DNA of 64,000 bases from a virus. A program made the position numbers and the translations under genes. The notes beneath the pieces are model-generated. The model had not been told where the DNA came from. It made no database searches and saw nothing but the letters and a program-made list of their open reading frames with translations. Location of the stretch: positions 19,312-83,311 of IMG/VR virus record IMGVR_UViG_3300042870_001850. One strand, written 5' to 3'. Positions 34,618-60,867 of the stretch are shown here, piece by piece (the stretch's first letter is position 1; every line of letters starts with the position of its first letter).

Positions 34618-34629
34618 AACAGTTTTATG
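34592..34629 (+). repeat. 38-bp direct repeat, copy 1, spanning gene end, gap and next start
   Basis: 36 of 38 positions match 35413-35450. This copy covers the end of array gene 4, the gap with its -10 element, and the ATG of array gene 5. It marks a tandem duplication endpoint. Confidence 0.9.
34615..34620 (+). promoter_or_regulatory. -10 element of a predicted leaderless promoter inside the array
   Basis: TAGAAC, six bases, ATG at 34627; the duplicated version at 35436 reads TAGAAT. Confidence 0.4.
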
Positions 34630-35391: not shown

Positions 35392-35412
35392 TGCCATATT
35401 AAGCACAATCGT

Positions 35413-35450
35413 CAAGATGGCAGCTAGAACAAGGATAGAATAGTTTTATG
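35413..35450 (+). repeat. 38-bp direct repeat, copy 2
   Basis: Copy of 34592-34629. Here it is not part of an upstream gene: the fragment of array gene 4 is left stranded between array genes 5 and 6, ending in a duplicated promoter and ATG. Confidence 0.9.
35436..35441 (+). promoter_or_regulatory. -10 element of a predicted leaderless promoter inside the array
   Basis: TAGAAT, six bases, ATG at 35448. Confidence 0.45.
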
Positions 35451-38252: not shown

Positions 38253-38333
38253 AGTACGCTGTCAATTAGGAATTTGTACCGCTACTTAGGTATAGTAGTA
38301 AAGACAGCAGCTATACAGCAAAACGGAGTAAAA

Positions 38334-39053: not shown

Positions 39054-39751
39054 AAGTGCGCCTCACAAGAAACCACCAGTCTGCGCCACGCATTGCGCAG
39101 TCTCGCGTTAAGCGCGATTGGATGGATGAAACGTACAACAAGCACGCGTACCAGTGCATGCCTATGACTGCCGCTAATACAAACGGCTGGGAGTTGATTC
39201 TTGAAGAAGATCTTGTTGTCCAATGGGACGGCGGCAACAACCCTGTCACAGTAGTTAGTGGAGGCGAACAAAACGGGCGTCAAGTAGCATTTCCTTCTAT
39301 TATTGGGATCATCTCAATTGGGATGGGTTGGACAGTCAATACTGAAGAAGGCTATGCAACGTGGCTTACCGGGTCTCCTAATTACTTCGTCGACGGCGCT
39401 GTTCCGCTTGCCGCGGCTATTCCCAGTTCATGGTGGCCAGATGAAGTGCAAATGAACTGGAAGATTACTAAAATAGGCGAACCAGTGACCTTTCCAGCGG
39501 GGTCGCCATTTTGTTTTTTTACCATCTACAAAGAAGATCTACTGCCATCTGTTGAGTTTGAAGTGTCTAACCTATGGGATAAGCCAGAGCTTATTGAAGC
39601 CAGGGTCAAGTACAGCAACGTAAAAATGAAAAATAACGCTGACAACCCGTGGACATGGACTAAGGGAATTAAAACTGGCGTAGATGCTGATGGCAATAAG
39701 ATAGGTCCAGGATTTACTGGAATAAATAAGCTCAACTCTCCGCATATGTGA
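39050..39751 (+). CDS. DUF6065-family protein
   Basis: 233 residues. MKVRLTRNHQSAPRIAQSRVKRDWMDETYN and then CMPMTAANTNGWEL with VQWDGG look like DUF6065, a family found in aquatic phages and some biosynthetic clusters near 2OG-Fe(II) oxygenases. There is no metal or nucleotide motif I can identify. Start coupled to array gene 9 by the ATGA overlap, which suggests a joint function such as substrate presentation. Confidence 0.65.
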   Translation: MKVRLTRNHQSAPRIAQSRVKRDWMDETYNKHAYQCMPMTAANTNGWELILEEDLVVQWDGGNNPVTVVSGGEQNGRQVAFPSIIGIISIGMGWTVNTEEGYATWLTGSPNYFVDGAVPLAAAIPSSWWPDEVQMNWKITKIGEPVTFPAGSPFCFFTIYKEDLLPSVEFEVSNLWDKPELIEARVKYSNVKMKNNADNPWTWTKGIKTGVDADGNKIGPGFTGINKLNSPHM

Positions 39752-39794
39752 TAAGATAGCAAAGTACTAGCTCACCTCAACAAGAATTGGACAT

Positions 39795-40028
39795 ATGAAT
39801 ATGAAGTTTACTGTAACTCTAACTAATGAAGAAAAAAAGGCAATTTACAGTCGTGCCGTACTAGACTGTGAAAGACATCTCATTACTGCGCTTATCGCCG
39901 AAGGACATGATCCCGATACTTTCGATGAGGCAACATTTGTTCCGGCGGAGACTCTTGGTGATGAATTTATTGCAAGGAATCTAACGCAACTTGCTCGCCT
40001 TAAAGCCAATGTCGCAGATCTAGGATAA
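39795..40028 (+). CDS. Small hypothetical protein
   Basis: 77 residues, acidic and helical (FTVTLTNEEKKAIYSRAV...). First of a group of four small genes inserted in the oxygenase array. Not recognised. Confidence 0.45.
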   Translation: MNMKFTVTLTNEEKKAIYSRAVLDCERHLITALIAEGHDPDTFDEATFVPAETLGDEFIARNLTQLARLKANVADLG

Positions 40029-40039
40029 TAAGAACTGCC

Positions 40040-40258
40040 ATGGCACTTTCAACAGCCCAAATAGAAAAAGCTAAAGTAAAAGCGTTAGACTACCTCGAGT
40101 TTTCAATATTCTCAATGGCTTTACTATTAAACGTCGATCTTGAGACTTTAGACGAGACATTTGTAAATCCAGCAGATAAAGACACACAACTGGACCTATG
40201 GAGTGCATACGAGTCGCTCATTGTTCAAGTAAAGTCGCACGCAAAGTTAGTAGACTAA
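40040..40258 (+). CDS. Small hypothetical protein
   Basis: 72 residues, helical, with MALSTAQIEKAKVKALDYLEF at the start. Shares length and DLETLDETFVNPAD-like wording with its upstream neighbour (DTFDEATFVPAET), so the two may be diverged duplicates. Function unknown. Confidence 0.45.
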   Translation: MALSTAQIEKAKVKALDYLEFSIFSMALLLNVDLETLDETFVNPADKDTQLDLWSAYESLIVQVKSHAKLVD

Positions 40259-40260
40259 TT

Positions 40261-40545
40261 ATGAAAATTACTCCTAAGGTGCCTAAAAAAATTCCACTTC
40301 TCGAGGCCGCATTTAAGACTGGTAAGTATCAAATTTGTCCGGACGTCAGTTTTGCCCACCCGCGTATTGTTGAGCCAACGCACAACCCAGACCGTGACAA
40401 TCAAGTTGCTCGTTGGGTGCCAGAGCAGTTTTCTTACCAAATGCCAGACGGTGGTACATTTTTTTGCGATCTCTTGCAAAATGGCGACCCAAAAACACCA
40501 TGGGACACGACTCAAGCAGATGAGTTAACAGAAGAAGACTTTTAA
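40261..40545 (+). CDS. Small hypothetical protein
   Basis: 94 residues from the ATG two bases after the preceding stop. Begins MKITPKVPKKIPLLEAAF and has a beta-rich middle (CPDVSFAHPRIVEPTHN). Stop overlaps the next ATG by one base. Not recognised. Confidence 0.5.
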   Translation: MKITPKVPKKIPLLEAAFKTGKYQICPDVSFAHPRIVEPTHNPDRDNQVARWVPEQFSYQMPDGGTFFCDLLQNGDPKTPWDTTQADELTEEDF

Positions 40546-40853
40546 TGAAAAGAACAAGAATAACTGCGGGCGAAAACTTGTATGACGCGACAAAAGATCT
40601 TGAGAGAACAGAAGGAAAACTTTTAGAGCTTATGTACATCGCAGGACTTGATAACACGGACGTCGACACTGTTACAATTGACGAACTTATTGAAGCCCTT
40701 AGAAAAGGGTTTGTCTATACTTCTGCTGTTGGAAATTCTTATAACGTTGGAGCTACTGCCTTTCTTAGACAAGAAAACTTTCATTTAGTTATCCAAGCTC
40801 GTAAATATTGGTGGTACCGCCAACTTGCAAAAGGAGCACTAAGCCGTGGATAA
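40545..40853 (+). CDS. Hypothetical helical protein
   Basis: 102 residues with charged N-terminus and hydrophobic-aromatic C-terminus (LVIQARKYWWYRQLAKG). Coupled to genes on both sides. Not recognised. Confidence 0.5.
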   Translation: MKRTRITAGENLYDATKDLERTEGKLLELMYIAGLDNTDVDTVTIDELIEALRKGFVYTSAVGNSYNVGATAFLRQENFHLVIQARKYWWYRQLAKGALSRG

Positions 40854-41580
40854 CATAGTACTTAGAACAGCGACTGTTACGCGGCTGATTAGCAACACGC
40901 TTGCCACAAGTACCTTTGAAGAAGGAAAAACGTACCGCGAAGATTCATCTGCACGCGCGTTGGCAGAATACGCTACTTTTAATATTGACAGACGGACAGT
41001 TGCAATCGGTGGCAGTGAAGAAATCTGGCTATTTGATTTGATGAAAGAAATGGACCCTTCGTGGTACGAAATGATCAACTCAGTGCAGACAATAACTGAA
41101 ATGGCCTTTTTAATGAAAAATCCTCGTAAAATTCTTTCATTTTGTGCATGCATTCCGTCTACTATGTGTTTATGGCTATCAAATATGGCCGATCCAGAAA
41201 CTGAATTGACATTTGTCAATAACCCGATGCTTGACGCGTACGAGCAGCACATGATACCTGTCAGTGACACTCACACATATTCAAAGTATTCAGTAATTGA
41301 TTATGATGACTTGGAAAATGGTATTGAAGACAAGTATGATTTTATTGCAGCTATGGCGTGGGACATTGTAAGCGATCCAGATTTGCAACGCCAAGCTGTC
41401 GATGCACTTGCGCCGGGTGGTATTTTATGTGTTGCTCTTACAAATAATGGAGGCAAGCTGTACACAGACTCGTATCATGCGCATCCATACACTGAATTTC
41501 ATGAGAATCTTGGGAAGATGGACGGGCATACATACCATATTCCGGCCTTGTACGCGCACACACTATTCATAAAGAACTAA
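40846..41580 (+). CDS. Possible SAM-dependent methyltransferase-like protein
   Basis: 244 residues, GTG start, overlapping the gene before by 8 bases. RRTVAIGGSEEIWLFDLMKEMD resembles a first Rossmann strand, and DFIAAMAWDIVSDPDLQRQAVDALAPGGILCVAL resembles the motif IV to strand 5 region of class I methyltransferases. The Gly-rich motif I is poor. Assignment is tentative. Confidence 0.45.
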   Translation: MDNIVLRTATVTRLISNTLATSTFEEGKTYREDSSARALAEYATFNIDRRTVAIGGSEEIWLFDLMKEMDPSWYEMINSVQTITEMAFLMKNPRKILSFCACIPSTMCLWLSNMADPETELTFVNNPMLDAYEQHMIPVSDTHTYSKYSVIDYDDLENGIEDKYDFIAAMAWDIVSDPDLQRQAVDALAPGGILCVALTNNGGKLYTDSYHAHPYTEFHENLGKMDGHTYHIPALYAHTLFIKN

Positions 41581-41703
41581 TACTTATCGGCAGCAATGCC
41601 GTTGACTGGTTAACGAGTGCCGCAAAAAAACTATCTTCAACGTCTGACATTAGTGCGCCAGTTGCGTTCTTTGATGCTGTTTTAATGTATAATTTGCATT
41701 GGC
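41581..41703 (+). other. Gap with an open frame lacking a start
   Basis: A frame shifted relative to the preceding gene stays open through the gap (ELILIGSNAVDWLTSAAKK and on to 41713) and looks protein-like, but no ATG, GTG or TTG opens it. It may be a decayed gene end or the product of a frameshift. TATAAT at 41688-41693, ten bases before the ATG at 41704, looks like the promoter of the next gene. Confidence 0.3.
41688..41693 (+). promoter_or_regulatory. -10 element before the second part of the oxygenase array
   Basis: TATAAT ten bases upstream of the ATG at 41704, implying a leader of only a few bases. Confidence 0.45.
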
Positions 41704-42369
41704 ATGGACACTAAGACGCTTCTTTCTAATTTACAAGTAGTAGATGAATACATACCGAAGAATGATGTCAAAGTTCTTCTTGATTTCTGTGAATCATTTC
41801 ACGAGTGGGACAACGGGTATGATAGATGTCCTGATCTTTCAAGCGTTGACATTGATGGCAAATACCGATACGATATTGAAGAAATGCATATAGCGCAAAA
41901 CCATAGCTATTTGCACCCTCTTGTTCTTAAGTACCAAAAAAAGATAGAAGAGTACGCGAGTGCTGTATACGGAAGATCTCTTACTACGTACCACAATATG
42001 CATCTTCGCAAGTATTTTGAAGGCGACAAGTTCGACGAGCACTTTGACTCTGAAGGAAAAGACGAAGGCAAGATTCAACGACTGCCAGGATACAGCTCTT
42101 CTGACAAAGTTCCGGCAGCGCTAATAGAAATTGCAGTTAACATGTATCTAAACGATGATTATTCTGGTGGAGAAATCTACTTTCCAGATCACGATGTGTC
42201 AATAAAACCAAAACCAGGGCAACTTATAATGTTTCCAGGTGGGCACGAGTTTAAGCACGGAGTCCGCACAGTAACTAGCGGCAGCAGGTACACTATGGCT
42301 TCGTTTTTGACAACACCTAAGCTACTAATGCTGCACGCGGCAGCGTACAACGGAGCAGCCAGTGAGTAG
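41704..42369 (+). CDS. P4H-like 2OG-Fe(II) oxygenase (array gene 10)
   Basis: 221 residues. DEHFDSEG gives H113 and D115, FKHGVRTV gives H185, SGSRYTMASFL gives R195. YSGGEIYFPDHD is the core strand. Opens the second half of the array after the small-gene insertion and overlaps the next start by 8 bases. Complete site. Confidence 0.85.
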   Translation: MDTKTLLSNLQVVDEYIPKNDVKVLLDFCESFHEWDNGYDRCPDLSSVDIDGKYRYDIEEMHIAQNHSYLHPLVLKYQKKIEEYASAVYGRSLTTYHNMHLRKYFEGDKFDEHFDSEGKDEGKIQRLPGYSSSDKVPAALIEIAVNMYLNDDYSGGEIYFPDHDVSIKPKPGQLIMFPGGHEFKHGVRTVTSGSRYTMASFLTTPKLLMLHAAAYNGAASE

Positions 42370-43216
42370 CGCACATCATCTAGGCGGAGGGACTGTAGTA
42401 TTCCGCAACGCAATCACAGTTCCGCAAAATACAATTATCCCGTATCTTGAAGAACTAAAAGAACAGTCACGCAGCGAAATGTTTACTATCGTCAAAGATG
42501 AAGACGGCAATCCACTGCATGCTCTTAATCAAGGTGGGTTTATCTACGATCTTGAAAAGATCAATCGCGCTCCGGTTCGAATGATGAACCTTACGCATCC
42601 GTTTTTCCAAGAGTGTGAGAATGCTTTGTATGACGCGCTTTTGCAGTACATTGAAATGTTTCCTGCAGTTCTTCAGTCTCTGTGGTGGAGAAGTGAGGGC
42701 CACATTCTTGCGTATGACAAAGGCGCTGCTCTAGGATTTCATTCAGACAACGACGTCAACTACCGCTACGGTGCAGTTCCGCCTACAGAGCACGCAACAC
42801 GGAATGTGCTAAGCGCGTTGATCTATTTCAATGACTGCATTGATGAAGGCGAAGAAGAGACTCAGTATTCTTTTTCTGGCGGCCACATGAGTGTTCCGTA
42901 CTTTAATGCGGACATCAAACCGCGCACGGGGGACATTTGCATGATGCCAGCAAACTACATCGGTGCTCACGAGATTGCAGAAGTCACGCGAGGCACTAGA
43001 TACTCATATCTTGGGTGGTTTGCGCAGGGATCAGAAGACGCCAATAAAGGAGTAAATCCTCAGCATGAGAAAATGTCTGAATCGATTGGCGGACAATACT
43101 GGATGAAAACAATTATTGAAGACTATGAAAAGTATATCTATGACAAATATCCGGACAATGCTACTAGGCCTTCGCATCTTCTTGCAGTGTCTAATAGACA
43201 GAAGGACCACGTGTGA
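42362..43216 (+). CDS. P4H-like 2OG-Fe(II) oxygenase (array gene 11)
   Basis: 284 residues, GTG start. GFHSDNDV gives H127 and D129, GAHEIAEV gives H203, GTRYSYLGWF gives R213. With the two genes that follow it forms a subfamily marked by the start HLGGGxVVF/LF, a conserved EMFP helix, GAHE as distal site and SYLGW after the Arg. The GGEL core strand is replaced by SGGHMSVPY. Confidence 0.8.
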   Translation: MSSAHHLGGGTVVFRNAITVPQNTIIPYLEELKEQSRSEMFTIVKDEDGNPLHALNQGGFIYDLEKINRAPVRMMNLTHPFFQECENALYDALLQYIEMFPAVLQSLWWRSEGHILAYDKGAALGFHSDNDVNYRYGAVPPTEHATRNVLSALIYFNDCIDEGEEETQYSFSGGHMSVPYFNADIKPRTGDICMMPANYIGAHEIAEVTRGTRYSYLGWFAQGSEDANKGVNPQHEKMSESIGGQYWMKTIIEDYEKYIYDKYPDNATRPSHLLAVSNRQKDHV

Positions 43217-44097
43217 TGCAAAATAACAACGTAGAAGCTCAACATCTTGGCGGCGGAGTTGTCTTATTTAAGAACGCTCTTAAGTGGGACTGGGACAAAG
43301 TAATAGATCTCGCTGAAGAAATATGTGCAAGAGAGCACAGCAGTATGTATACTGAGTCTGTCGATCCCGAAACTGGAGAATTTGCTTATCTTAATCGAAG
43401 TGGTTTTTACTTTAGACCGGAGTCTGTTGATGAAATGCCGCGCCGTGGGTCTCGTATTCATCAAGACGATAGACCAGAGGTTGTTGAATTTTTGACTTTT
43501 CTAGAAGAAGCTAGAGATTCTTATTTGATGAAGTACATGGAAATGTTTCCTATTGCGTTCAAAACGATTTGGTGGAAAATTAAAGGTCATATAGTTTCAT
43601 ACAAACCTGGCGGGTATCTAGGCCCACATTCAGACACCAGCTCTGACTGGGCTTACGGAGTTCACGAGCCTAAGGATCAGCTCGCAACTCGGACAACTGT
43701 AGCTTCGCTTATTTACTTTAATAGCTCAGTTGACACTGAAAAAGAATTAGACGGATCAAACTTCACAGCTGGGCATCATTACTTTAACTACCTTGATATT
43801 TTAGTCAAACCAGAACGTGGCGATCTTTTAATGTTCCCGTCAAACTATATGGGAGCGCACGAAGTGCAGCCTGTCGGCGCAGGAATTAGGTACTCATATC
43901 TTGGTTGGTACTCGCACGGCACGCCAAATCCAGCAGTAAGTGAAAGTGTTACAGACCCTCTTACTGAGCCAGAGCTTGCGAAAATCGCAACTAACGTGTA
44001 CATGCCGTATCTTAAGCGTGACTTCGTGGCACACTTAAAGAGCAAAGGTATGACTAGCGTAGACATCCCTGGCTTTACTTTTGGAGATGAGCAATGA
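43216..44097 (+). CDS. P4H-like 2OG-Fe(II) oxygenase (array gene 12)
   Basis: 293 residues from the ATG at 43216 (a GTG lies one codon before). GPHSDTSS gives H138 and D140, GAHEVQPV gives H215, GIRYSYLGWY gives R225. Tandem paralogue of array gene 11. The ATG of the next gene overlaps the stop. Confidence 0.8.
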   Translation: MQNNNVEAQHLGGGVVLFKNALKWDWDKVIDLAEEICAREHSSMYTESVDPETGEFAYLNRSGFYFRPESVDEMPRRGSRIHQDDRPEVVEFLTFLEEARDSYLMKYMEMFPIAFKTIWWKIKGHIVSYKPGGYLGPHSDTSSDWAYGVHEPKDQLATRTTVASLIYFNSSVDTEKELDGSNFTAGHHYFNYLDILVKPERGDLLMFPSNYMGAHEVQPVGAGIRYSYLGWYSHGTPNPAVSESVTDPLTEPELAKIATNVYMPYLKRDFVAHLKSKGMTSVDIPGFTFGDEQ

Positions 44098-44873
44098 ACA
44101 TCAACCACTTAGGCAACGGCATTGTTCTTTTTGAGAATGCGTTAGACGTTGACGACGATTTAGTGTCTTCATATATGTCGTACTTGCAATCAACAAACAA
44201 AGAAGTGCACTTTTTTAACACAGACGATTCTTCTGAAGTTGTAAATACTTCAGGCTACAAGTTTGACAAGAATGAAGTAAATCTAGCACCTGACAGATTT
44301 ATAAGAACTGTGACGAACAGTACTCCAAAAGAATTCGTTGATCTTGTACAGCGCTACGAGGATGTTCTATACTTATGCTTAGTTGAGTACTGCAAGATTT
44401 TTCCTGTCGCTGTTGAGGCGATAACATGGAGATCGCGTGGAAGTATAGCAACGTACAAGAATGGCCAGCATATTGGGTGCCACTCAGACTCGTCCGTTCC
44501 GTGCGTGATTGGCGAAATGCCGTCTAATCAAATTGCGTTACACACGACACTCACTGCAAGCCTTGTCATGAACAGCGATTTTGTAGGTGGAGAAATTGGA
44601 TTTAGAGCTTGGGGAACGGTGGTTGACGTAGGAGCTGGAAGCATTCTGTATTACCCGTCTACGTACGTTGGCGCTCACGAGGTTCTTCCAGTTACTTCTG
44701 GAGAACGAATTGTGTATCTACAAAGATTCTGTCATGGTCATCCAGGAATTGGAATGCCAGGTGTGCATGACGACAACTTGATGAGTGGTAACCAATGGCT
44801 GCCTTCTCTAAGAGACGACGTTGGACTGGGTAATATGTATCAAGAAATAGTGAACAAATACAGTGGTCAATGA
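44094..44873 (+). CDS. P4H-like 2OG-Fe(II) oxygenase (array gene 13)
   Basis: 259 residues. GCHSDSSV gives H130 and D132, GAHEVLPV gives H195, GERIVYLQRF gives R205. Third member of the HLGxG subfamily and the most diverged; FVGGEIGFRAWG keeps the core strand. It ends the array. Confidence 0.8.
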   Translation: MNINHLGNGIVLFENALDVDDDLVSSYMSYLQSTNKEVHFFNTDDSSEVVNTSGYKFDKNEVNLAPDRFIRTVTNSTPKEFVDLVQRYEDVLYLCLVEYCKIFPVAVEAITWRSRGSIATYKNGQHIGCHSDSSVPCVIGEMPSNQIALHTTLTASLVMNSDFVGGEIGFRAWGTVVDVGAGSILYYPSTYVGAHEVLPVTSGERIVYLQRFCHGHPGIGMPGVHDDNLMSGNQWLPSLRDDVGLGNMYQEIVNKYSGQ

Positions 44874-46614: not shown

Positions 46615-47127
46615 CTACGGGTTTTGTACGTACCCATCTTGATGTGGCCAAACGTATTCGTAATCTAAAGGCGCAATGCCGGTATCTTCAGCCCAATTAA
46701 ACTTTTTATACCAGTCATAATTCTTACAAAGTAGCGCTGTTCTGTGGGTAGAGCACATTCTTTCATAATAGTCTTTGTCAAGCATCCAACTCGGGATGAT
46801 TAGCTCCTCAGACACGCGGCCAAGCTCGAGAGCTTTATCGTAAGTCCTTTGGGTTTTTTCAAGCAAAGTTGACTTGTAGCCACGAGAGATCCACTCGTAA
46901 TAAGTTGCTGAAATGTATGACACTAGAAGTGTTTCGTGGCCGCGCCACATACGAGCCACTGGGTGGTTGTACCAGCCTTTAGGTTCTCTGTGGTTGCCTT
47001 CTGGATTCAATTTGACATTGGTTAATAGACACTGCCAAGCCTCCAGTGTTTGCTTGTGCAGACGCTTGTTGTCTATATGAGAAGCCGTTTCTTCAAATGA
47101 ATACGGTGATGTAAGAAATGATTGCAT
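46615..47127 (-). CDS. Pyrimidine-dimer DNA glycosylase-like (Pyr_excise family) protein
   Basis: 170 residues. SFEETASHIDNKRLHKQTLEAWQ, NHPVARMWRGHE and YYEWISRGYKST are the conserved blocks of the phage/bacterial homologues related to T4 endonuclease V. The protein would excise UV-induced pyrimidine dimers, useful to a phage of sunlit water. It has a strong extended -10 promoter and aagga ribosome site of its own. Confidence 0.7.
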   Translation of the reverse strand: MQSFLTSPYSFEETASHIDNKRLHKQTLEAWQCLLTNVKLNPEGNHREPKGWYNHPVARMWRGHETLLVSYISATYYEWISRGYKSTLLEKTQRTYDKALELGRVSEELIIPSWMLDKDYYERMCSTHRTALLCKNYDWYKKFNWAEDTGIAPLDYEYVWPHQDGYVQNP

Positions 47128-47187: not shown

Positions 47188-48432
47188 CTAGACTTCTGGG
47201 TACCAAGTCCGCTTAACGAAGTGACGGCTGAAGCCTTTGTCAGTGTGAAGCAAGTACTCGCGATCACCGATAAGTTCTCCTTGAGGACCAGCAGGCTGAC
47301 CTTGAAGAGCTGCCATTGCCATGTCGCCAATCCACTTACCTGCCTGAGCGGCTACTGCCTTACCCCAAGTAGATTGCAGTGCAGAGTATCCGCGTGCTTC
47401 TGAGAATTCCCAATCGTCGGGAAGACCTTGCATACGAGCAGCCTCTCTATGAGTAATTAAACGAGGCTGTGTCGGGTGAACAACATGGTCAAGGCATGAG
47501 CCAGTCAGCACATTGCACCATGAGTTTGCAGGCCAACGAGCAGGCTGTGAGAAACCAAGATCAAAATCTTTTCCTCTGATCTTTTCTGCTACACCAGCCC
47601 ATGACTGTGGGAAAGTGTCGTTGTTCTGAGCAACAGCATTGCGAAGCGCCTTACTTAAATTCTCTCTGCCTGACCAGCCACCATTACCGAGAATGTCAAA
47701 TACTTCTGAGATTCTTTGAGCATGGACGTTTGACTTTGCAATGTGTCCGTCGACAAGACCATCTTTGCGAACAAGATCCTTAACGTACTTGCTTGGAGTC
47801 TTTTTGATCTTTTGTGGATCCCATGACATTTCTAAATCTTCTAGATCGCCGATGATGTCCATGATAGTTGGCATTTCTTCAGGCGCTGTTACTGATGCAC
47901 CAAAGTTAAGACCTTCTTCAGCAGCAACCCAGAAGTAACGAGGACGGTATGAGAATCCGCCAACTTGGAGGTTGTTCATCATTACGTGATAGAGGTCGTA
48001 CTTTTTATTAGACAACGACTCAACAAGGTCACGATACTTGACCATTGCATCACGTCCTTGAGTGTATGCCTGCTGAACACATTCAAAGATAATAAGCTTA
48101 GGTTGAACCTTAGCCGCATACCGCATAAACGCGCGCGTGTGTTCGTGTGCTGCTGCGTCGGGGCCGCGATTAGCAGGACCGGACCATACAGACCAACCAG
48201 AACATGGCGGACAACCGACAACTACATCTGCTTGCTGTACTGGCCACTCTGACTCATCATCGGAAAAGAAAGAACTCCAGTTGTCACCGAGGTGATGCCT
48301 GTTGAGTTCAGCAATAGGATTGCCAAAGTTTAGCGTTCCTGTGCGAAGCCGCATTTCCATGCCTGACTGAACAAAGCCATAGCTCATAAATCCAGCGAGG
48401 CCGTTGCAGTCGATAAATGTTTTCTTAGACAT
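47188..48432 (-). CDS. DNA (cytosine-5) methyltransferase
   Basis: 414 residues. DCNGLAGFMSYGFVQSG is motif I, GCPPCSGWS holds the catalytic C77 (motif IV, with PCS where most have PCQ), FECVQQAYTQG stands for motif VI, and PRLITHREAARMQGLPDDW with a following GKAV region are motifs IX-X. The variable region between lacks a recognisable target domain. It would methylate cytosine in a specific site, protecting from host restriction. Shine-Dalgarno gagga. Relation to the predicted hydroxymethylcytosine pathway is discussed in the findings. Confidence 0.85.
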   Translation of the reverse strand: MSKKTFIDCNGLAGFMSYGFVQSGMEMRLRTGTLNFGNPIAELNRHHLGDNWSSFFSDDESEWPVQQADVVVGCPPCSGWSVWSGPANRGPDAAAHEHTRAFMRYAAKVQPKLIIFECVQQAYTQGRDAMVKYRDLVESLSNKKYDLYHVMMNNLQVGGFSYRPRYFWVAAEEGLNFGASVTAPEEMPTIMDIIGDLEDLEMSWDPQKIKKTPSKYVKDLVRKDGLVDGHIAKSNVHAQRISEVFDILGNGGWSGRENLSKALRNAVAQNNDTFPQSWAGVAEKIRGKDFDLGFSQPARWPANSWCNVLTGSCLDHVVHPTQPRLITHREAARMQGLPDDWEFSEARGYSALQSTWGKAVAAQAGKWIGDMAMAALQGQPAGPQGELIGDREYLLHTDKGFSRHFVKRTWYPEV

Positions 48433-48985: not shown

Positions 48986-49404
48986 TAGCGAATTCTTTTC
49001 TCAAGAAGATATGGCGTATAGTGAGTGCCGTCTAAGAATGGCTCTTTACCATCTGTAGAACGTATGACTACATCACCGTATCTAATAGCTGTAATCTTTC
49101 CGCGTCGCCCATTGTGAATTACACCAAGTGAGCCGTCATACGCATCTTGCTTGACACGAACTTCATCGGCAACTTTTAGAAATCCCGGCTGAGCTGGGAC
49201 CCATACTTCATCAGGATTATCGTCGATGAGAGCATGCGTAAGAGCTAACTTACTAAATAGCTCTACTGCTTCTTTTGAAGCGGCAACAGATAAACCAGCA
49301 CCGTCCCATGTTTCCAAAAGTTTAAGTACCATCTTACCGGCACCTACTTTTACTTTTGCTTGATCCATCTGAGCGCGAACCCAATCAAAATCTACTTCAG
49401 GCAT
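48985..49404 (-). CDS. Hypothetical protein with KOW-like C-terminal beta domain
   Basis: 139 residues from the ATG at 49404 (Shine-Dalgarno aaagga). The longer open frame to 49755 covers the real upstream gene and is not used. The N-terminal half is helical; GSLGVIHNGRRGKITAIRYGDVVIRSTDG resembles a KOW or SH3-like barrel. Function unknown. Confidence 0.55.
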   Translation of the reverse strand: MPEVDFDWVRAQMDQAKVKVGAGKMVLKLLETWDGAGLSVAASKEAVELFSKLALTHALIDDNPDEVWVPAQPGFLKVADEVRVKQDAYDGSLGVIHNGRRGKITAIRYGDVVIRSTDGKEPFLDGTHYTPYLLEKRIR

Positions 49405-49870
49405 TATTTTTCCTTTCGGGACATTGTGATTCTTTACACGATGATACGTCGTAGTCGTCCAGTGCTCTAAAGCATGCAGTACACTTAACACCCTCATCGA
49501 GAACTTTGTAGCCAGCCTTTTGCCTATTGGCATTGACTTGCATTTTCGCGAGATACTCGGCGTCAAGTTCCTCGTCAGTAGCACCAGCAGCGCATAGAAT
49601 GTTAGCAACAAAATGGAGAACATCGACACATTCTTTAAGAATTTCTTTGCGGTCTGCGTACGGTTCATCGTGTTGCCAAGGCTTCCATGAGATTGCTTTA
49701 CGAACTTCTGCAAGTTCGTCATCGATTGCGAGCATATTCCATCGGATGTACTCAATTAGATAATTAAGATCTTCTGGATCGCTGCCGTGAAGTTTGCCGT
49801 AATCGACTTTGTAAACATTCTTTTGAAGTTCACTAGTCTTTCCTAGCCAATTATTAAATAGTGTATTCAT
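49397..49870 (-). CDS. MazG/all-alpha dUTPase-like nucleotide pyrophosphohydrolase with zinc-binding tail
   Basis: 157 residues. ELAEVRKAISWKPWQH carries an ExxE metal motif and ILKECVDVLHFVANILC the ExxxD-type partner, as in dimeric dUTPases and MazG-type enzymes. The C-terminus has CTACF...CKESQCP, a possible zinc knuckle. It would hydrolyse dUTP, or dCTP if base exclusion is needed for modified DNA. Overlaps both neighbours. Confidence 0.7.
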   Translation of the reverse strand: MNTLFNNWLGKTSELQKNVYKVDYGKLHGSDPEDLNYLIEYIRWNMLAIDDELAEVRKAISWKPWQHDEPYADRKEILKECVDVLHFVANILCAAGATDEELDAEYLAKMQVNANRQKAGYKVLDEGVKCTACFRALDDYDVSSCKESQCPERKNNA

Positions 49871-49871
49871 G

Positions 49872-50882
49872 TCATTTACCGACTAACTGTTGTATATGTG
49901 TAAGTGTGTCTTGCTCATTAGCTATATTACTAATGTATTGTTCTTTTTGCGTAACAGACAGCTCGTAATGATCTATCTGAGACATTTCTTCAATTCCTGC
50001 TGCTATATGATTCCATGCATCGCCAATCTTGCTACTAGAGATCCAATCAGTTGCAATGGGAGTTCCTGCGTTAAGAGCATGAACGTATGTTGGAGACCAC
50101 CAAGTGGTCTTATCTGTGTGAGGACCAATCAGTGCACCTAAGCTTGTGACTAGTGCGCCAAAGATGTCTTCATCAGTGCGAAGCTTATTCTTCTTAATAG
50201 ATGAACATGGAAGAGTCAAAGACGCCTCCGTGTTCTTCATCCATCGTGTACTGTCATTCTCTGTAATCCATCGGCGGACCCTATTAGTCTTAAAGGCTGT
50301 ATCAGCAATGCTAAAAGAGTCAGTGCTGATACCGGCCATTGACTTAAGTGCGTTAACTGGTACACCAGGTACGCTCATGGTGTCATCTGCCCACGGTAAG
50401 CGTGGATAGACAGTACTTGGCCAATCTTTATTAAGAAGAACGGACGCACCACGAAGCACGTGCTCTCTACGAGCGTCAGACTTTATAACTGCGCTGTACC
50501 CTTTTCTTCTTGAATAGAACGGCTTAATCAATTTTGTGCCGTCCTTTTCAATCGCTCTTAAGTTAGCAAATATCTTCCACGGTTCTGGGCCATCGATAAA
50601 TAAACCTAGCTTTTCATTGTCAGCAAGCGTAGCTATAGTTGACAAAGCTCCGTATGTAGAGTTTGATGTTACACTGAGTGCTGGCGCAACACCGACAAAG
50701 ACTTTAGAATATTCTTCAAGAAAGAATGAGTTCCACTCCACAGACGGTTCTGCAAAGTGGACTTCATACTCTAGACGCTCTAAGCACTTAGCAAGTGATC
50801 CGGCAAACGACAGTGAACGATTAGCTACTGCGGATGAATGCTGTTGTGCAGTCATTCCAGTGACTAATACTTTTTTCTTCAC
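49872..50882 (-). CDS. GT-B-like glycosyltransferase-like protein 1
   Basis: 336 residues. KKVLVTGMTAQQHSSAVANRS at the start and a C-terminal half with THVLNAGTPIATDW-like wording (YVHALNAGTPIATDWISS) resemble the two Rossmann halves of phage GT-B proteins. It is a paralogue of the next gene upstream (VTGMTAQQHSS against MTGYTAQHIGS). No DxD motif, as expected for GT-B. Acceptor unknown; modified DNA is one option. Confidence 0.5.
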   Translation of the reverse strand: MKKKVLVTGMTAQQHSSAVANRSLSFAGSLAKCLERLEYEVHFAEPSVEWNSFFLEEYSKVFVGVAPALSVTSNSTYGALSTIATLADNEKLGLFIDGPEPWKIFANLRAIEKDGTKLIKPFYSRRKGYSAVIKSDARREHVLRGASVLLNKDWPSTVYPRLPWADDTMSVPGVPVNALKSMAGISTDSFSIADTAFKTNRVRRWITENDSTRWMKNTEASLTLPCSSIKKNKLRTDEDIFGALVTSLGALIGPHTDKTTWWSPTYVHALNAGTPIATDWISSSKIGDAWNHIAAGIEEMSQIDHYELSVTQKEQYISNIANEQDTLTHIQQLVGK

Positions 50883-50884
50883 TG

Positions 50885-51922
50885 CTATTTGACCTCTGCT
50901 AATGCTCGGTGAACTGCACTCATAACTGTTTCAATAAGTTGTTCCTTAGTTGCCTGAGCCGCAAAGAACGTATCGTGCTGAGCATCTGCAAGCTCTCTTA
51001 ACTGTGAGCCATTCATTGCTTCTACTTCAGAGGCTTTAACCAAGAATGGTCCGCCAAGCGGAGCAACTTCTGCTGGATCAGCAAGCATGATTGATCGTGT
51101 GCGTGCAGTATACACAAAGCGGTTACGCCACCAGCCACTGCCGGCATGCGGATACTTTGGCGACAAGACGCCCCACGAGTTTGCGTAACGTTCTACAAGT
51201 TCGCGCTCTGTAAGTTTGGTATCTGCTTTACTTGCGCGACCGCCAATGTATTCAACAGGCCATGACAGACCCATCTTTTCTAACCACTTGTGCTGATCAG
51301 ACAACACTCCAAGAATCCACTGCTTTGATCGAATGTCGTCACTTGGAATAGGTGTATTGAATTCTTCAGCATATGGGCTGAGGTCTGCATAGCACCACTC
51401 GCGTGATGTAAGTGTATGTGTAACCTTTGAACCGTCACCCCAAGTAAACTTAGGAACAAGTGTAATCGGCCAAGGGTTGTGCAATAGCGCTTGCGCTACT
51501 GGAAAGATTTTGTCTACGTTTGCTCGTGCCCACGGGAGATCAGCACGTGCCGACCCAAGACTTTCACGAACGAGTCTATTGCTATCTTTGTTAATAGTCT
51601 TCAAACTTGTAATCAAGTTGTGCGTCTGCCAATCATCGATGTAAAACATCAAACCGCAGCCGTTTTCTTTTGCGCGCGCAACAACATCAAGTGCGCCGTA
51701 CGCGTATGTTGATCCGAGTGCAGACAGAGAAATCTGCCCACAGAGAATCAAATCGTAGCCTGAGATATCCTCATCAGGCATTGCTCTACGATGATCAACT
51801 TCACAGCCGCCGTCACGTAGTACTTCGGCAAACAAGTCTGCAACTGAGCCATACTTGACTAGTTTTCTTTGAGATCCGATGTGTTGAGCCGTGTAGCCGG
51901 TCATTAGAATTTTAATTGCCAT
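50885..51922 (-). CDS. GT-B-like glycosyltransferase-like protein 2
   Basis: 345 residues. IKILMTGYTAQHIGSQRKLVKYGSV forms the first Rossmann strand and loop, GYDLILCGQISLSALGSTYAYGAL the next, and WGVLSPKYPHAGSGWWRNRFVYTARTRSIMLAD the nucleotide-sugar-binding half. Paralogue of the adjacent gene at 49872, spaced by two bases, so a heteromer or sequential action is likely. Confidence 0.55.
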   Translation of the reverse strand: MAIKILMTGYTAQHIGSQRKLVKYGSVADLFAEVLRDGGCEVDHRRAMPDEDISGYDLILCGQISLSALGSTYAYGALDVVARAKENGCGLMFYIDDWQTHNLITSLKTINKDSNRLVRESLGSARADLPWARANVDKIFPVAQALLHNPWPITLVPKFTWGDGSKVTHTLTSREWCYADLSPYAEEFNTPIPSDDIRSKQWILGVLSDQHKWLEKMGLSWPVEYIGGRASKADTKLTERELVERYANSWGVLSPKYPHAGSGWWRNRFVYTARTRSIMLADPAEVAPLGGPFLVKASEVEAMNGSQLRELADAQHDTFFAAQATKEQLIETVMSAVHRALAEVK

Positions 51923-56219: not shown

Positions 56220-56690
56220 TTACTGCAGAAGTCGCATTGGCTTCCAGCCAGTTTTTACTAAACGAAGAAGACCATGGCGTACAGCGTCTAATGCGTGACC
56301 TTCGCCGCCTTTATGCCAGTATTCAAGTTTCTTTAGAGTTTCATTAGGGAACATTTTCTTGGCGTCAGATGGTGACTGAAAGATCAACTCATCTGGGTCA
56401 ATACCACAATCAAGCATGATGTACTTGAGAACTCCAATTTGCTCAAGGCTAAATGGAGCTTGACTATTGCGGACCGTCTGCGCGTTAATGATGAATCGCT
56501 CACACACAATGTCAATCTTCATATTCATTGCTTGAGCATACTTGATTGTTTCGTAGATTGGAATGTGGTATTCACGGAGCTGATACTCTCCAGACTTTTC
56601 AAGAACAGGTTCTTGTCCGTCAGCAGTAGAAAAAGTACAAATGCCGCTGGCTTTTCCAGGGTCTACAGCAAGAATAATCTTATTTGTCAT
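56220..56690 (-). CDS. RuvC-like/RNase H-fold resolvase
   Basis: 156 residues from the ATG at 56690, overlapping the polymerase stop by one base; a longer frame to 56774 lies inside the polymerase gene. IILAVDPGKASGICTF gives D10 of the first strand, DIVCERF the Glu, and GGEGHALDAVRHGLL the C-terminal acidic pair. This is the RuvC-type fold used by phages to cut Holliday junctions before packaging. Confidence 0.8.
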   Translation of the reverse strand: MTNKIILAVDPGKASGICTFSTADGQEPVLEKSGEYQLREYHIPIYETIKYAQAMNMKIDIVCERFIINAQTVRNSQAPFSLEQIGVLKYIMLDCGIDPDELIFQSPSDAKKMFPNETLKKLEYWHKGGEGHALDAVRHGLLRLVKTGWKPMRLLQ

Positions 56691-58513
56691 TAGTACTTGT
56701 CTCCCCAGTTCTCTAGTGGACCATCTACGTCTGCTGTTAGAGGAACTGCCCAGCCTTCTGTAGTTGTCATGCATTCTTTTACAATACGCTTGATTTCTTC
56801 AGCGTCCTTGCGAGGAGCATTGAGAACGATTTCGTCATGTACTGGCACAATAAGTAGCTCAGTAAGATCTGCTTGATCTAGTTTTACAAGATTACTCTTA
56901 AACACTTCAGCGGCACCGCCTTGAATTAAGTAGTTAACCAAAGTGTATACGCGATTATCATCACATGGGAGTCTACGACCTGTCCATGTATATACATAGC
57001 CTTGACCTTCAGCTCTAGTGCGTCGCATACCGACGTCTTCAATTTGCTTTTGGAAGAAAGCCATGCCAGGGAATCTGCTATCAAACGCGTCTGAAGTATG
57101 CTTCATCTGGACTTCATGAACGCCGGCTGTAAGTGCCTGCTTAGCAACACCAGCTCCGTACAGACGACCATAGACCATTGACTTAATAAGACCGCGTCGC
57201 TTGTCAGACTTTTGCATACTCGGGTCTTCGTATACTTCACGGCCAATCTCAGTAAATGGATCAGAGCCAGTAGCATCAGCAAGATTAAACAAGCCAATGA
57301 GGTTTGGATCTTGAGACAGACTGGCAAACATTCTAAACTCAACCTGATCAAGGTCGCTTGTTACGATTACGTGATCATCGTCTTTTGGAATAAACGCGCT
57401 GCGAACTACATTGTCTCCTTTAGGCAAAGTCTGAAGCGCTGGATTAGTAATTGACATACGACTAGTGCGAGCACCAAGAGTACGAACAGACGGATGAACT
57501 ATGCCATTGCTTGACTCAGTGAGGAAGTTAGAGAAGTACGTATTGGCAAGTTTGTCTGCTTTGCGCTGCTTCAGTGCGACGTCTGCTAGGTTAGCAATTT
57601 CTTTATTCTCATCGAGCATCAGCATCTTAAGTTGATCTTTGGTGCAAGACTTTTGCCCTGTCGGAGTAAACTCAGTAATATTTGCACCAAGACTTTCAAA
57701 CAAACGAACCAATTGCTGGTTGCTAGTTATAGATGTACCACCGTATGTTTGCTTTGCCCATGTCTTAACTGAGTCGCTATACGTAGTTAGCTCGTCAAAC
57801 TTTCTCTGTGAGTAGTCAAGGTCAATGCGAGCGCCATTGAGTTCCATACGAGTAACAATTCGTCGTGTAGCCATCTCGAGTTCATATGGCCTGCTGTACG
57901 GTCCATCTGGCCCGCATTGCTTATAAAACATTTCCCATAGACGCGTCGTAAGAATACAGTCAAGTGCGCCATATGACCAATAAGGTTGGAAGTCAATAGG
58001 AACAGTTCCCCATGTCCAGCCATTCTTAGCAAGTTCAGTGTCAAGCGTTTCTTGTAATGCAACAGCGCGACTGTCAACATGTAGTGCAGCAAGACGCTTG
58101 AGAGCGCCGGACCCAAGTGGATCAATAATGTGTGCCATGATCATCGTGTCATGCGCACGATGCCAAGGAAGTTCCCAACGAGACTGCACTGCAAACCAGC
58201 GAGCTTCGAACGCAATGTTATGGCAGATGATAGGACCATCAAACTTATCCATCGCCTCGTAGAAGACACCTTTCCATTCGTCCCACGGAATAGACCAGCC
58301 CTGCTCGCCGTCGCCGACCTGAACTAAACGAAGACGACCGTGCCATGGAGAAAATGCATCTGTGCGCGGATTACCTGGAAGCTCTCCTGTTTCAGTATCA
58401 ACTGATAGCGCATCGTACGGGCGACGTTGGCTTATCCAATGTAAAAAGTCATTTGCTTTCTGCGCGCTGTCAACTAAGTGAAGCTGCACTCCTGAAAGAT
58501 CTGGTGTTGTCAT
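56690..58513 (-). CDS. Family A DNA polymerase with 3'-5' exonuclease
   Basis: 607 residues. Exonuclease motifs: VDTETG (D39, E41), ICHNIAFEARW and WSYGALD. Polymerase motifs: SDLDQVEFRMFAS (motif A), KRRGLIKSMVYGRLYG (motif B), VPVHDEIVL (motif C). In motif B the residue equal to E. coli Phe762 is Tyr448, as in T7 polymerase. There is no 5' nuclease domain. Replicative enzyme of the phage, coupled to the resolvase gene downstream and the deaminase upstream. Confidence 0.95.
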   Translation of the reverse strand: MTTPDLSGVQLHLVDSAQKANDFLHWISQRRPYDALSVDTETGELPGNPRTDAFSPWHGRLRLVQVGDGEQGWSIPWDEWKGVFYEAMDKFDGPIICHNIAFEARWFAVQSRWELPWHRAHDTMIMAHIIDPLGSGALKRLAALHVDSRAVALQETLDTELAKNGWTWGTVPIDFQPYWSYGALDCILTTRLWEMFYKQCGPDGPYSRPYELEMATRRIVTRMELNGARIDLDYSQRKFDELTTYSDSVKTWAKQTYGGTSITSNQQLVRLFESLGANITEFTPTGQKSCTKDQLKMLMLDENKEIANLADVALKQRKADKLANTYFSNFLTESSNGIVHPSVRTLGARTSRMSITNPALQTLPKGDNVVRSAFIPKDDDHVIVTSDLDQVEFRMFASLSQDPNLIGLFNLADATGSDPFTEIGREVYEDPSMQKSDKRRGLIKSMVYGRLYGAGVAKQALTAGVHEVQMKHTSDAFDSRFPGMAFFQKQIEDVGMRRTRAEGQGYVYTWTGRRLPCDDNRVYTLVNYLIQGGAAEVFKSNLVKLDQADLTELLIVPVHDEIVLNAPRKDAEEIKRIVKECMTTTEGWAVPLTADVDGPLENWGDKY

Positions 58514-59007
58514 GCGTGTGTCGTTTCTTCTAGCGTCTCTCTGTCAACAGAGGTTACAAGTATACCACACTGTCGAAGATATTGAATTGCGTCTTCAGGC
58601 TTGCGGTGTTTATCAGACTCGCCAATCTCGCAAACAACTCGTGCAATTCCAGAGTTTGATATGAGTTTAGCACACTGCATACATGGCGGACTTACTATGT
58701 ATATAGTTCCGCCTTCGATACGTGAACGGTCAACATACAAAAGCGCATTAGCTTCTGCGTGGATTGACGGACACGCATCGTACATGTTATCTAGCGGTGC
58801 GATGCCTTGCGCACGCGGGCACCAGTTAATGCATTCGCCTTCTTGAGGAAGTGTTGCTGCTGGGCCATTGTAGCCAGTGGCAGCAATTCTCTGATCCTTA
58901 GAGATAATGACAGAACCCATCAGAGCTCTGGAGCATCGCGATCTCTTGCTAATAGTTCTAGCAACGTCAAGCCATACGCTATCCCACGAAGGCCGCGTGT
59001 CTGTCAC
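58510..59007 (-). CDS. dCMP deaminase-type zinc cytidine deaminase
   Basis: 165 residues, GTG start overlapping the previous stop. SIHAEANAL gives H83 and E85, PPCMQC gives C109 and C112: a complete zinc site. GYNGPA and the CxxH-like ligands near the N-terminus match dCMP deaminases. It would make dUMP from dCMP. Next to a thymidylate-synthase-family gene this would normally mean dTMP supply, but see that entry. Confidence 0.9.
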   Translation of the reverse strand: MTDTRPSWDSVWLDVARTISKRSRCSRALMGSVIISKDQRIAATGYNGPAATLPQEGECINWCPRAQGIAPLDNMYDACPSIHAEANALLYVDRSRIEGGTIYIVSPPCMQCAKLISNSGIARVVCEIGESDKHRKPEDAIQYLRQCGILVTSVDRETLEETTHA

Positions 59008-59177
59008 TCGTCTTCTTCGTTTCTCTGCATTTCACCAACTGCTGTTGCCATTGTCTTGGCAATCAATTCCATTGCTTCAGTTCGTGTAAATCCTGCAGCG
59101 CGCAATTCGCTGTATAACTCATGCATTTGTATTGCCGCTGCGCGAAGCGGACTTGTGTAATTTTCATCGCCGCTCAT
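59004..59177 (-). CDS. Small helical protein between deaminase and synthase genes
   Basis: 57 residues (GDENYTSPLRAAAIQMHELY...RNEEDE), amphipathic helices and an acidic tail. ATG with aggag ribosome site. Overlaps the genes on both sides by four bases (ATGA, GTGA), so it is almost surely translated. Not recognised. Confidence 0.55.
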   Translation of the reverse strand: MSGDENYTSPLRAAAIQMHELYSELRAAGFTRTEAMELIAKTMATAVGEMQRNEEDE

Positions 59178-60040
59178 TTGATTTCTCCTTTTAGAATGTT
59201 CTTATCGACAGCAGTACACATGGCTTCAGTAAACCATAGCTCACTCGCTGTAAGCTTGGACTTCAGAGATCTATTATCAACTGCGTCCATAGCTAAATGA
59301 GCAGATGATTCTACTTCACGCCATGTTCTGCCAGTAATATACGGCTGTTCTTCGACATTAGAAGTTTTTTTGAGTTTACCAGCGGCTTCATAATTATTCT
59401 CGTAAATGTGAAGAGATCCGACATGGTGAGCATATGTACCAGGCTCGATACCAAGTACAGAACACATAGCAAGTTGTACGCGAGTGAACTGAAAGAAGTC
59501 ATATGCTGAGCCAAGCCATACATCGTTTGACCGCATATACACACTCATGTTGAGTTTGTTATTGCGAATGCGGAATTGGTGCATCACTGTACACGGGTAG
59601 TCTTTCTTACCTGGAAGACAATCAAGTTCTGGGTTCCATAAAGTGACTACACCTTGACGAGAGTCAGAGTCGTTACGAAGTCTGTCGATGACAACGTCGT
59701 ACTGGCCGCGTGTTCTAGTTCCGTAAGATCCATGGAAGAATCCACTGTCTTCGGTGTAGTTAATGAACTGAGGACCGACAGCTACAACAAGCTTTGGCCT
59801 ACTCATTCCAGACAAGATTTGGCATGCTTCAACAGCACCAATTCCAGAGACCGTGCCTCTGTTTACACCTACTGGGAGGGCCGCATAGATGTTATTGATA
59901 TAAATTGTTACATCCTCAATCTCTCGTGTCTCCAGGCCTCTGGGTGCGGCTACAGAGCCATTATTAAGGACATGTTGAACAAGATCAACGTAGCCATTGA
60001 CACCGTCCTCGAGCTCTAACATTTTCATATTTACGTCCAT
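59174..60040 (-). CDS. Thymidylate-synthase-family protein, predicted dCMP hydroxymethylase
   Basis: 288 residues. Active cysteine C150 (DYPCTVMHQF), phosphate-site R170-S171 with D173 (MRSNDVWLG), and H211/Y213 (VGSLHIYEN) align with the family at the same spacings as in E. coli ThyA. Position 181, 31 residues after C150, is Asp where thymidylate synthases have Asn177; T4 gp42 (dCMP hydroxymethylase) has Asp179 there and also reads MRSNDV and VGSLHVY. So dCMP is the more likely substrate, giving hydroxymethyl-dCMP (or methyl-dCMP). A dUMP-using enzyme cannot be excluded. The gene is next to a dNMP-kinase-like gene. Confidence 0.75.
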   Translation of the reverse strand: MDVNMKMLELEDGVNGYVDLVQHVLNNGSVAAPRGLETREIEDVTIYINNIYAALPVGVNRGTVSGIGAVEACQILSGMSRPKLVVAVGPQFINYTEDSGFFHGSYGTRTRGQYDVVIDRLRNDSDSRQGVVTLWNPELDCLPGKKDYPCTVMHQFRIRNNKLNMSVYMRSNDVWLGSAYDFFQFTRVQLAMCSVLGIEPGTYAHHVGSLHIYENNYEAAGKLKKTSNVEEQPYITGRTWREVESSAHLAMDAVDNRSLKSKLTASELWFTEAMCTAVDKNILKGEIK

Positions 60041-60867
60041 TATTGCTGTATCCTTTCGACCTTGGGATTGCCAAGAACTTTAATGAGGCTATTCAGCCTG
60101 TCAGAAGACATGTGATTCTGATTTACTATGCCAACATTTCGCCAGATGCTATCTGGTAGAGACTCAATGAGAGCTTCTTCTGGACTTCCTTCTGCTGGAT
60201 AGCAAGGAAGAATAGTATCGCTACTATCCCAGCTACCGACATAAAGAATTGCAGGATCTGGAGAGCCAATATACTCGCTAAACTGAGCTAGCTTTTTAGC
60301 GTTATCGTGCACTTCTTCTGCTCTGTATATGACATGTTGAGCAAGCAAGTTAATACTGGCAGTGCTATCTGCACGGGGAGTTAGCTTACTAGTGAGACTG
60401 AGAACTTCTTGAGAAGTCTGCTCGTATAGGTCTACAATTTTCTCTAGCTCATCAAGATTTACAAAGTCGTCTCCACGAATCGCGACTCTGCTTTTGATTA
60501 CATCTAACGGCTGATACAGCCAGAACTGCGCAATACCGCGTGATGCCATGAACCATTCTGTCCAGCGCCAACCTGCTACGCCGAGAAGACCAAAGGCGTC
60601 TTTGCAAGTGTGAGGACGTTTTAGTGGCGCGTATGTTGCTTCGCCCCAATGCCAGCGATCTGCGACAACAACTGCGATAAACCAATTGACTTTTTCAATT
60701 GACATTACCCAATCATTGAGGACCCAATGACGAGTCTCTTCTTCAGGGCGTCCCTTGTGAAAACGAGTAGTGTAGAACTCTGGATACTTGTCTGCTAATT
60801 GGCGAGCGACCTCATCTGCGAGAGAGCTTTTACCAGAGCCGTCGGAGCCTTCGATAACTATAAACAT
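60040..60867 (-). CDS. P-loop deoxynucleotide kinase-like protein (thymidylate-kinase fold)
   Basis: 275 residues. FIVIEGSDGSGKSSLADEV (2-20) is the P-loop, and VVVADRWHWGEATYAPL near residue 67 holds the DR(W/Y) base-binding motif. The C-terminal 80 residues form an extra domain with no clear match. It would phosphorylate dNMPs, perhaps a modified one such as hm-dCMP. Adjacent to the hydroxymethylase-like gene with one base of overlap. Strong TGTTATAGT promoter upstream. Confidence 0.75.
   Translation of the reverse strand: MFIVIEGSDGSGKSSLADEVARQLADKYPEFYTTRFHKGRPEEETRHWVLNDWVMSIEKVNWFIAVVVADRWHWGEATYAPLKRPHTCKDAFGLLGVAGWRWTEWFMASRGIAQFWLYQPLDVIKSRVAIRGDDFVNLDELEKIVDLYEQTSQEVLSLTSKLTPRADSTASINLLAQHVIYRAEEVHDNAKKLAQFSEYIGSPDPAILYVGSWDSSDTILPCYPAEGSPEEALIESLPDSIWRNVGIVNQNHMSSDRLNSLIKVLGNPKVERIQQ

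Follow-up and report, generated by a model that had tools for sequence, protein, structure and literature searches.

Described enzymes of the thymidylate synthase family that modify pyrimidines

In bacteriophage T4 gp42, Asp145, three residues ahead of the catalytic Cys, activates a water molecule to give a hydroxymethylated product where thymidylate synthase (TS) has Leu, and the substitution D145N abolishes hydroxymethylation (PMC6400193). An Asp at the position of Escherichia coli ThyA Asn177 is established as conferring a preference for cytosine in T4 gp42 and in the CMP 5-hydroxymethylase MilA (PMC6400193, PMC5175136), and N177D by itself is enough to make ThyA a dCMP methylase, according to the work of Liu and Santi as cited in PMC8670742. 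At the sugar-contact position, Ala (as in MilA) versus Ser separates ribose from deoxyribose substrates (PMC5175136). In the metagenomic MetaGPA study, positions 147 and 177 were the two that best discriminated between enzymes of modified and of unmodified DNA, and Asp177 pointed to modified cytosine. DNA with modified cytosine was enriched in Asp177-type enzymes, and its TS domains co-occurred with dCMP deaminase and NTP pyrophosphatase (NTP-PPase) domains (PMC8670742). A 5-hydroxy-dCMP synthase has also been described (PMC13390438), for which the homologue in phage RB69 is a candidate.

A TS-family gene of probable hydroxymethylase type

The window, meaning the whole stretch of 64,000 nucleotides analysed here, is part of an 83,311-base IMG/VR record of a freshwater actinobacterial virus. 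It contains an uninterrupted TS-family open reading frame of 288 amino acids on the minus strand (60040..59174), whereas the plus strand is interrupted here by many stops. The initial annotation had placed a TS homologue at these coordinates; position and family (PF00303, E 2.8e-24; PHROG 5131/160) agree with our analysis, whilst the minus-strand orientation had been missed. The gene and its key codons are as follows.

59174..60040, minus strand: very probable dCMP 5-hydroxymethylase of the TS family (PF00303, best PDB match MilA, active-site comparison)
59498..59500, minus strand: codon of Asp181, the putative cytosine-recognition residue equivalent to T4 gp42 Asp179 and ThyA Asn177 (alignments; role from PMC6400193)
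59591..59593, minus strand: codon of Cys150, the catalytic nucleophile (invariant in alignments)
59600..59602, minus strand: codon of Asp147, equivalent to T4 gp42 Asp145, water-activating in hydroxymethylases and Leu in ThyA (alignments; PMC6400193)

Among named relatives the nearest, at 77% identity, is Actinomycetia phage DSL-LC01, assembled from a Dishui Lake metagenome, and a tree built with FastTree placed the window family with the enzymes of Gordonia phages Phendrix, Forza and GMA2, all of Asp type. It had been predicted that automatic annotation would call such a gene thymidylate synthase, and the homologues of DSL-LC01, AXL3, Phendrix and Forza are indeed all deposited under that name; PHROGs likewise pool ThyA, T4 gp42 and the dUMP hydroxymethylase SPO1 gp29 in the same families. 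If right, the residue assignments below correct a systematic misannotation.

Active-site residues

Alignment with E. coli ThyA and T4 gp42 placed Cys150 and Asp181 opposite ThyA Cys146 and Asn177 and T4 gp42 Cys148 and Asp179, confirming the initial annotation that Asp181 occupies the Asn177 site 31 residues past the active Cys. Its flanking motifs MRSNDV and VGSLHxY are those of T4 gp42 (MRSNDV, VGSLHVY) rather than of ThyA (QRSCDV, GGDTHLY), as had also been noted. More broadly, the set E71, R128, D147, C150, T151, S171, D173, D181, H211 and Y213 agrees with T4 gp42, including the equivalents of its catalytic Cys, Asp179, Asp145, Thr149, Ser169 and Asp171. Asp147, Cys150, Thr151, Ser171, Asp173 and Asp181 were each found in 92 of 92 IMG/VR relatives checked, some of them near-duplicates; the count overstates their independence because the Asp was part of one of the two search patterns by which most had been retrieved. 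Asp181 is also kept in sequences of just 30–43% identity, including distant relatives fetched by other routes, so its presence is not attributable to chance.

At window positions 147, 151 and 181 (E. coli 143, 147 and 177) the protein carries Asp, Thr and Asp in place of the ThyA signature Leu143, His147 and Asn177, whilst two deoxyuridylate hydroxymethylase-type sequences have Asp, Asn and Asn. Asp147, three residues ahead of the Cys, matches the signature published for hydroxymethylases, and Thr151 is the state of T4 gp42 and MilA. The Asp, Asp and Thr at E. coli positions 177, 143 and 147 are shared with the CMP 5-hydroxymethylases MilA and BcmA. MilA was also the best PDB sequence match, but Ser171 and Arg128 form the deoxyribose pattern where MilA, acting on ribose, has Ala176 and Lys133; a CMP hydroxymethylase was therefore ruled out. 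SPO1 gp29 and ViI-type dUMP hydroxymethylases share the Asp three before the Cys and the Gln after the phosphate-binding Arg, but have Asn at E. coli positions 147 and 177 (the uracil type), where the window family has Thr and Asp.

Differences from T4 gp42 are also apparent. Identity is only 24%, the C-terminal region is longer, and the second phosphate Arg (ThyA Arg127) is replaced by Gln129, a residue also found in SPO1 gp29. The second part of the hydroxymethylase signature, a Ser or Thr two residues before the catalytic Tyr (T4 Ser94), was absent, with Gly104 throughout the family. Since SPO1 gp29 hydroxymethylates dUMP with Ala at this position, we did not treat it as defining, but Gly104 lowers the certainty with which the protein would be placed strictly within the T4 type.

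The previously proposed switch in base choice from dUMP to dCMP is backed by T4 gp42, MilA and the Asn-to-Asp change in ThyA (PMC6400193, PMC5175136, PMC8670742). Asp181 by itself does not justify the further step to a hydroxymethylase, since ThyA N177D is a dCMP methylase; that step is instead supported through Asp147, Thr151 and the retained folate-binding Asp173. That same ThyA result, as cited in PMC8670742, is the main argument for a dCMP 5-methyltransferase of the phage XP12 type, which would form 5-methyl-dCMP and DNA containing 5mC. We consider this quite improbable, given that Asp147 stands in place of the Leu of methylating TS, that T4 gp42 loses hydroxymethylation with D145N, and that the glycosyltransferases encoded nearby would need a hydroxyl acceptor.

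Another alternative is a 5-hydroxy-dCMP synthase of the RB69 (Mosigvirus) kind, leading to arabinosyl-type sugars directly on C5. The superfamily is the same, Asp at E. coli position 177 and Thr at 147 recur in the RB69 homologue, and dCTPase and dCMP deaminase genes also occur in pentose-modified phages. In the RB69 homologue, however, the pterin-binding Asp is changed to Asn, Gly173 to Val and Tyr209 to Phe, with Glu at 143, whereas every aligned member of the window family retains D173, G177, Y213 and D147. The retention of the folate-binding Asp173 and of Gly177, unlike in RB69, led us to reject this very improbable reading.

Judged from its residues, the window gene product is thus very probably a dCMP hydroxymethylase, and we hold with considerable confidence that the best explanation is a dCMP 5-hydroxymethylase of the T4 gp42 (pyrimidine hydroxymethylase) type, acting within a predicted pathway to glycosylated 5-hydroxymethylcytosine (hmC). 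By a mechanism carried over from T4 gp42 on the strength of conserved residues, Cys150 would attack C6 of dCMP, Asp181 would recognize and protonate the cytosine ring, methylene-tetrahydrofolate would donate the one-carbon unit, and water activated by Asp147 would add to the exocyclic methylene to give 5-hydroxymethyl-dCMP (hm-dCMP).

Operon context and dTMP supply

The gene lies in an operon with nucleotide-metabolism and replication genes, listed here with two genes further downstream.

60040..60867, minus strand: P-loop nucleotide kinase of thymidylate-kinase type, directly upstream; probable hm-dCMP/dTMP kinase (PHROG 761, 7.9e-16)
58510..59007, minus strand: dCMP deaminase (PF00383, 9.5e-18; PHROG 174)
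56690..58513, minus strand: family A DNA polymerase (PolA), same operon (PF00476, 1e-55)
49397..49870, minus strand: all-alpha NTP pyrophosphatase of the Pfam family of T4 gp56 dCTPase/dUTPase (PF08761, 3.3e-12)
47188..48432, minus strand: C5-cytosine methyltransferase-like protein (PF00145, 1.6e-21)

The gene order is kinase, TS-family enzyme, dCMP deaminase, PolA, RuvC, SNF2 helicase, PD-(D/E)XK nuclease, RecA and SSB-like protein. It is kept with small variations in IMG/VR relatives down to cores of about 40% identity, the kinase adjoining the TS-family gene in these as well. The SSB-like gene is followed by a variable cassette, then the PF08761 gene and then the C5-methyltransferase-like gene. 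The glycosyltransferase-like gene GTa, described below, comes next after the SSB-like gene even in phages with core proteins about 40% identical. T4 gp56 dCTPase also matched PF08761 above the cut-off, so that, as in T4, a dCTPase-family protein is encoded in the same genome as the enzyme; the actinobacterial host and the family A polymerase set this virus apart from T4. The metagenomic Asp177-type enzymes of MetaGPA and gp28 of Stenotrophomonas phage AXL3 show the same residue triad as the window enzyme together with dCMP deaminase, kinase and NTP-PPase genes nearby, but AXL3 gp28 is only about 32% identical and belongs to a different phage group.

A rival reading is a plain thymidylate synthase that converts dUMP, delivered by the adjoining dCMP deaminase, into dTMP, as both automatic annotation and the published AXL3 annotation would have it. 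PF00303 membership, the adjoining deaminase and thymidylate-kinase-like genes, and the lack of a second TS or ThyX in both the 83-kb record and the complete DSL-LC01 genome are in keeping with that reading. On the other side, no DHFR was found in the 83-kb record, though dTMP synthesis would favour one, and ThyX co-occurs with the Asp-type enzyme elsewhere: 14 related records each held exactly one PF00303 gene, and one of these, the 116.8-kb record of locus L013, also encodes ThyX (PF02511, 2.4e-55), whilst AXL3 has an Asp-type enzyme plus its own ThyX according to its authors (PMC7504290). Together with the three residues at E. coli positions 143, 147 and 177, this co-occurrence led us to rule out an ordinary thymidylate synthase as scarcely credible. 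In records without ThyX, dTMP synthesis would fall to the host.

Beyond the residue assignment, the steps of the hydroxymethylcytosine pathway are drawn from gene content and fold and are thus conditional. The adjacent kinase would phosphorylate hm-dCMP on its way to the triphosphate. Together, the dCTPase/dUTPase-family protein and dCMP deaminase would keep down dCTP as a competitor and provide dUMP. Once hm-dC had been built into DNA by the phage polymerase, the two linked GT-B glycosyltransferases would put sugars on its hydroxymethyl groups.

The conserved C5-methyltransferase-like gene sits oddly with complete replacement of cytosine by hmC. It was found in 14 of 16 related records and accompanies the GTa cassette in distantly related phages; its motif IV (PPC) is intact, but motif VI has changed from ENV to ECV in the window protein and to ECV or ESV in all relatives aligned. 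If every cytosine were hmC, this protein would lack its ordinary substrate; hmC may therefore replace only part of the cytosine, or the protein may work in some other way. A pyrimidine dimer DNA glycosylase family protein of the T4 endonuclease V type (PF03013) is encoded close by (46615–47127, minus strand).

A predicted glycosyltransferase cassette

Two tandem genes that the initial annotation had missed lie 7–9 kb downstream of the TS-family gene.

50885..51922, minus strand: GTa, predicted GT-B glycosyltransferase with a fold like T4 beta-glucosyltransferase (BGT); probable hmC-DNA glycosyltransferase (AlphaFold2, Foldseek)
49872..50882, minus strand: GTb, paralogue of GTa and predicted GT-B glycosyltransferase (hhalign, AlphaFold2, GT-B matches)

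Neither protein had a match in Pfam or PDB sequence searches, including to the BGT family PF09198 for GTa, and a profile comparison of GTa with T4 BGT (hhalign) gave nothing significant. The two are paralogues of each other (hhalign P=100%, E 2.7e-45), and their AlphaFold2 models are confident (pLDDT 90 for GTa, 93 for GTb). The top five Foldseek matches of GTa in the PDB were all T4 BGT (E 2.2e-07), with moderate TM scores of 0.46–0.61 (best 0.59–0.61), whilst the GTb model matched GT-B enzymes with no special likeness to BGT. On the basis of these models, GTa is a probable hmC-DNA glycosyltransferase, and its invariant Asp96/Asp97 is a candidate counterpart of the catalytic Asp100 of BGT. 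The arrangement recalls T4, whose alpha- and beta-glucosyltransferases are also regarded as two GT-B paralogues (PMC13216743), and T4 BGT (phage DNA glucosyltransferase families GT63/GT72) is closest to the predicted fold of GTa; the lack of detectable sequence similarity, and a UDP-galactopyranose mutase in the cassette of some relatives, distinguish the present pair.

Gordonia phages GMA2, Phendrix, Forza, Sixama and GodonK encode GTa homologues (approximately 30% identity, E 1e-42 to 1e-52), and all five have homologues of the window enzyme, of Asp type in those checked (GMA2, Phendrix and Forza). In GMA2 the module runs GTa, small ORF, GT1-family protein, GTb-like protein, PF08761, PF00145 and WhiB; its authors regarded methylases and glycosyltransferases as possible DNA protection and described no modified base. 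In Lactobacillus phage ATCCB, an Asp-type homologue adjoins a PF09198 BGT gene. Aeromonas phage phiAS4, which is T4-like, has a GTa homologue of 24% identity between two similar-sized hypothetical proteins (L122, 3895–7167), possibly a related glycosyltransferase cluster.

Even if the window enzyme makes hm-dCMP, GTa and GTb might act on virion proteins or cell-wall sugars instead of DNA. UDP-galactopyranose mutase normally serves the cell envelope, the role assigned to it in DSL-LC01, and GTb resembles general GT-B enzymes. Against this, the pair is embedded in the replication operon, flanked by the SSB-like gene and the dCTPase-family gene, T4 BGT provides the closest solved structures to GTa, distant GTa-bearing records that were checked also have a TS-family gene (Asp type where read), and the ATCCB homologue lies directly beside a true T4-type BGT gene. 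A role away from DNA therefore appears unlikely, whilst retaining an appreciable chance.

The cassette varies among relatives. GTa, UDP-galactopyranose mutase and GTb occur together in DSL-LC01, L021–L025 and L030, and GTa with the mutase in L033; other relatives have a different set in the same slot, a 415-amino-acid protein with aminoglycoside phosphotransferase (APH)-like and HAD-like proteins, as seen at L007 (16563–19092), where the matches to PF01636 and PF00702 are both below cut-off. At L015 (18640–20642) the slot holds proteins of 457 and 213 amino acids without Pfam matches. GTa was below 40% identity at 45 of 54 loci (not dereplicated) with a RecA at least 80% identical to that of the window, yet phages whose RecA is near 40% identity keep GTa at 36–39%. 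This contrast indicates that the cassette has been exchanged or has diversified independently of the core, and far more than the neighbouring genes. The pattern is as expected from selection on a DNA coat recognized by host defences, and is compatible with other roles for the sugars as well.

Probable modified cytosine in actinophage DNA

Sequences, gene content and predicted fold together suggest that actinophages probably possess a T4-type hmC pathway with glycosylation, and that a conserved set of genes, among them those for two likely glycosyltransferases, probably replaces the cytosines of this virus with sugar-bearing hmC. The initial annotation had already raised hmC in virion DNA; we likewise infer its presence, a view strengthened by the conserved kinase, dCTPase-family and glycosyltransferase context, by ThyX in the L013 record and by the restriction resistance of AXL3. 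DNA of this cultured phage resisted 35 of 37 restriction enzymes, the two that cut both having A/T-only sites (PMC7504290), a result that fits modified C and modified G alike. Given the glycosyltransferase module, hmC carrying sugars is the likelier end product.

More tentatively, and with the balance rather against it, these actinophages may make a family of sugar-decorated hmCs through GTa/GTb-type enzymes that are unrecognizable by sequence, with exchange or divergence of the cassette changing the sugar and galactofuranose being used where the mutase is present. We know of no earlier description of galactofuranose as a DNA modification.

If these readings are true, a widespread group of actinophages from fresh water and soil would contain hypermodified cytosine. 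This would influence the range of host restriction and defence systems effective against these phages, and could skew long-read sequencing as well as library chemistry based on cytosine. The GTa/GTb family could also be a source of new reagents for hmC labelling. These predictions are testable in cultured relatives, namely Gordonia phages GMA2, Phendrix, Forza, Sixama and GodonK.

Other genes of the window

Positions 31398–44873 (plus strand) hold an extended run of 2OG-Fe(II) oxygenase-like genes, six of those tested matching PF13640. As the window holds many such oxygenases and a C5-methyltransferase, a TET-type route (C5-methyltransferase plus 2OG dioxygenase) was considered, but it was not supported, the Tet_JBP matches being below the Pfam cut-off. 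The run adjoins an open reading frame with poly-PYFPP repeats (30024–31370), and DSL-LC01 has collagen-like fibre genes, so a role for the oxygenases in prolyl hydroxylation of virion fibres is possible. Elsewhere, a kinase-like domain is fused to a cytidylyltransferase-like domain (APS_kinase, CTP_transf_like; 16777–17535, minus strand), and an open reading frame at 16101–16784 (plus strand) resembles a serine recombinase by sequence; DSL-LC01, which its authors read as lysogenic, carries an annotated recombinase.
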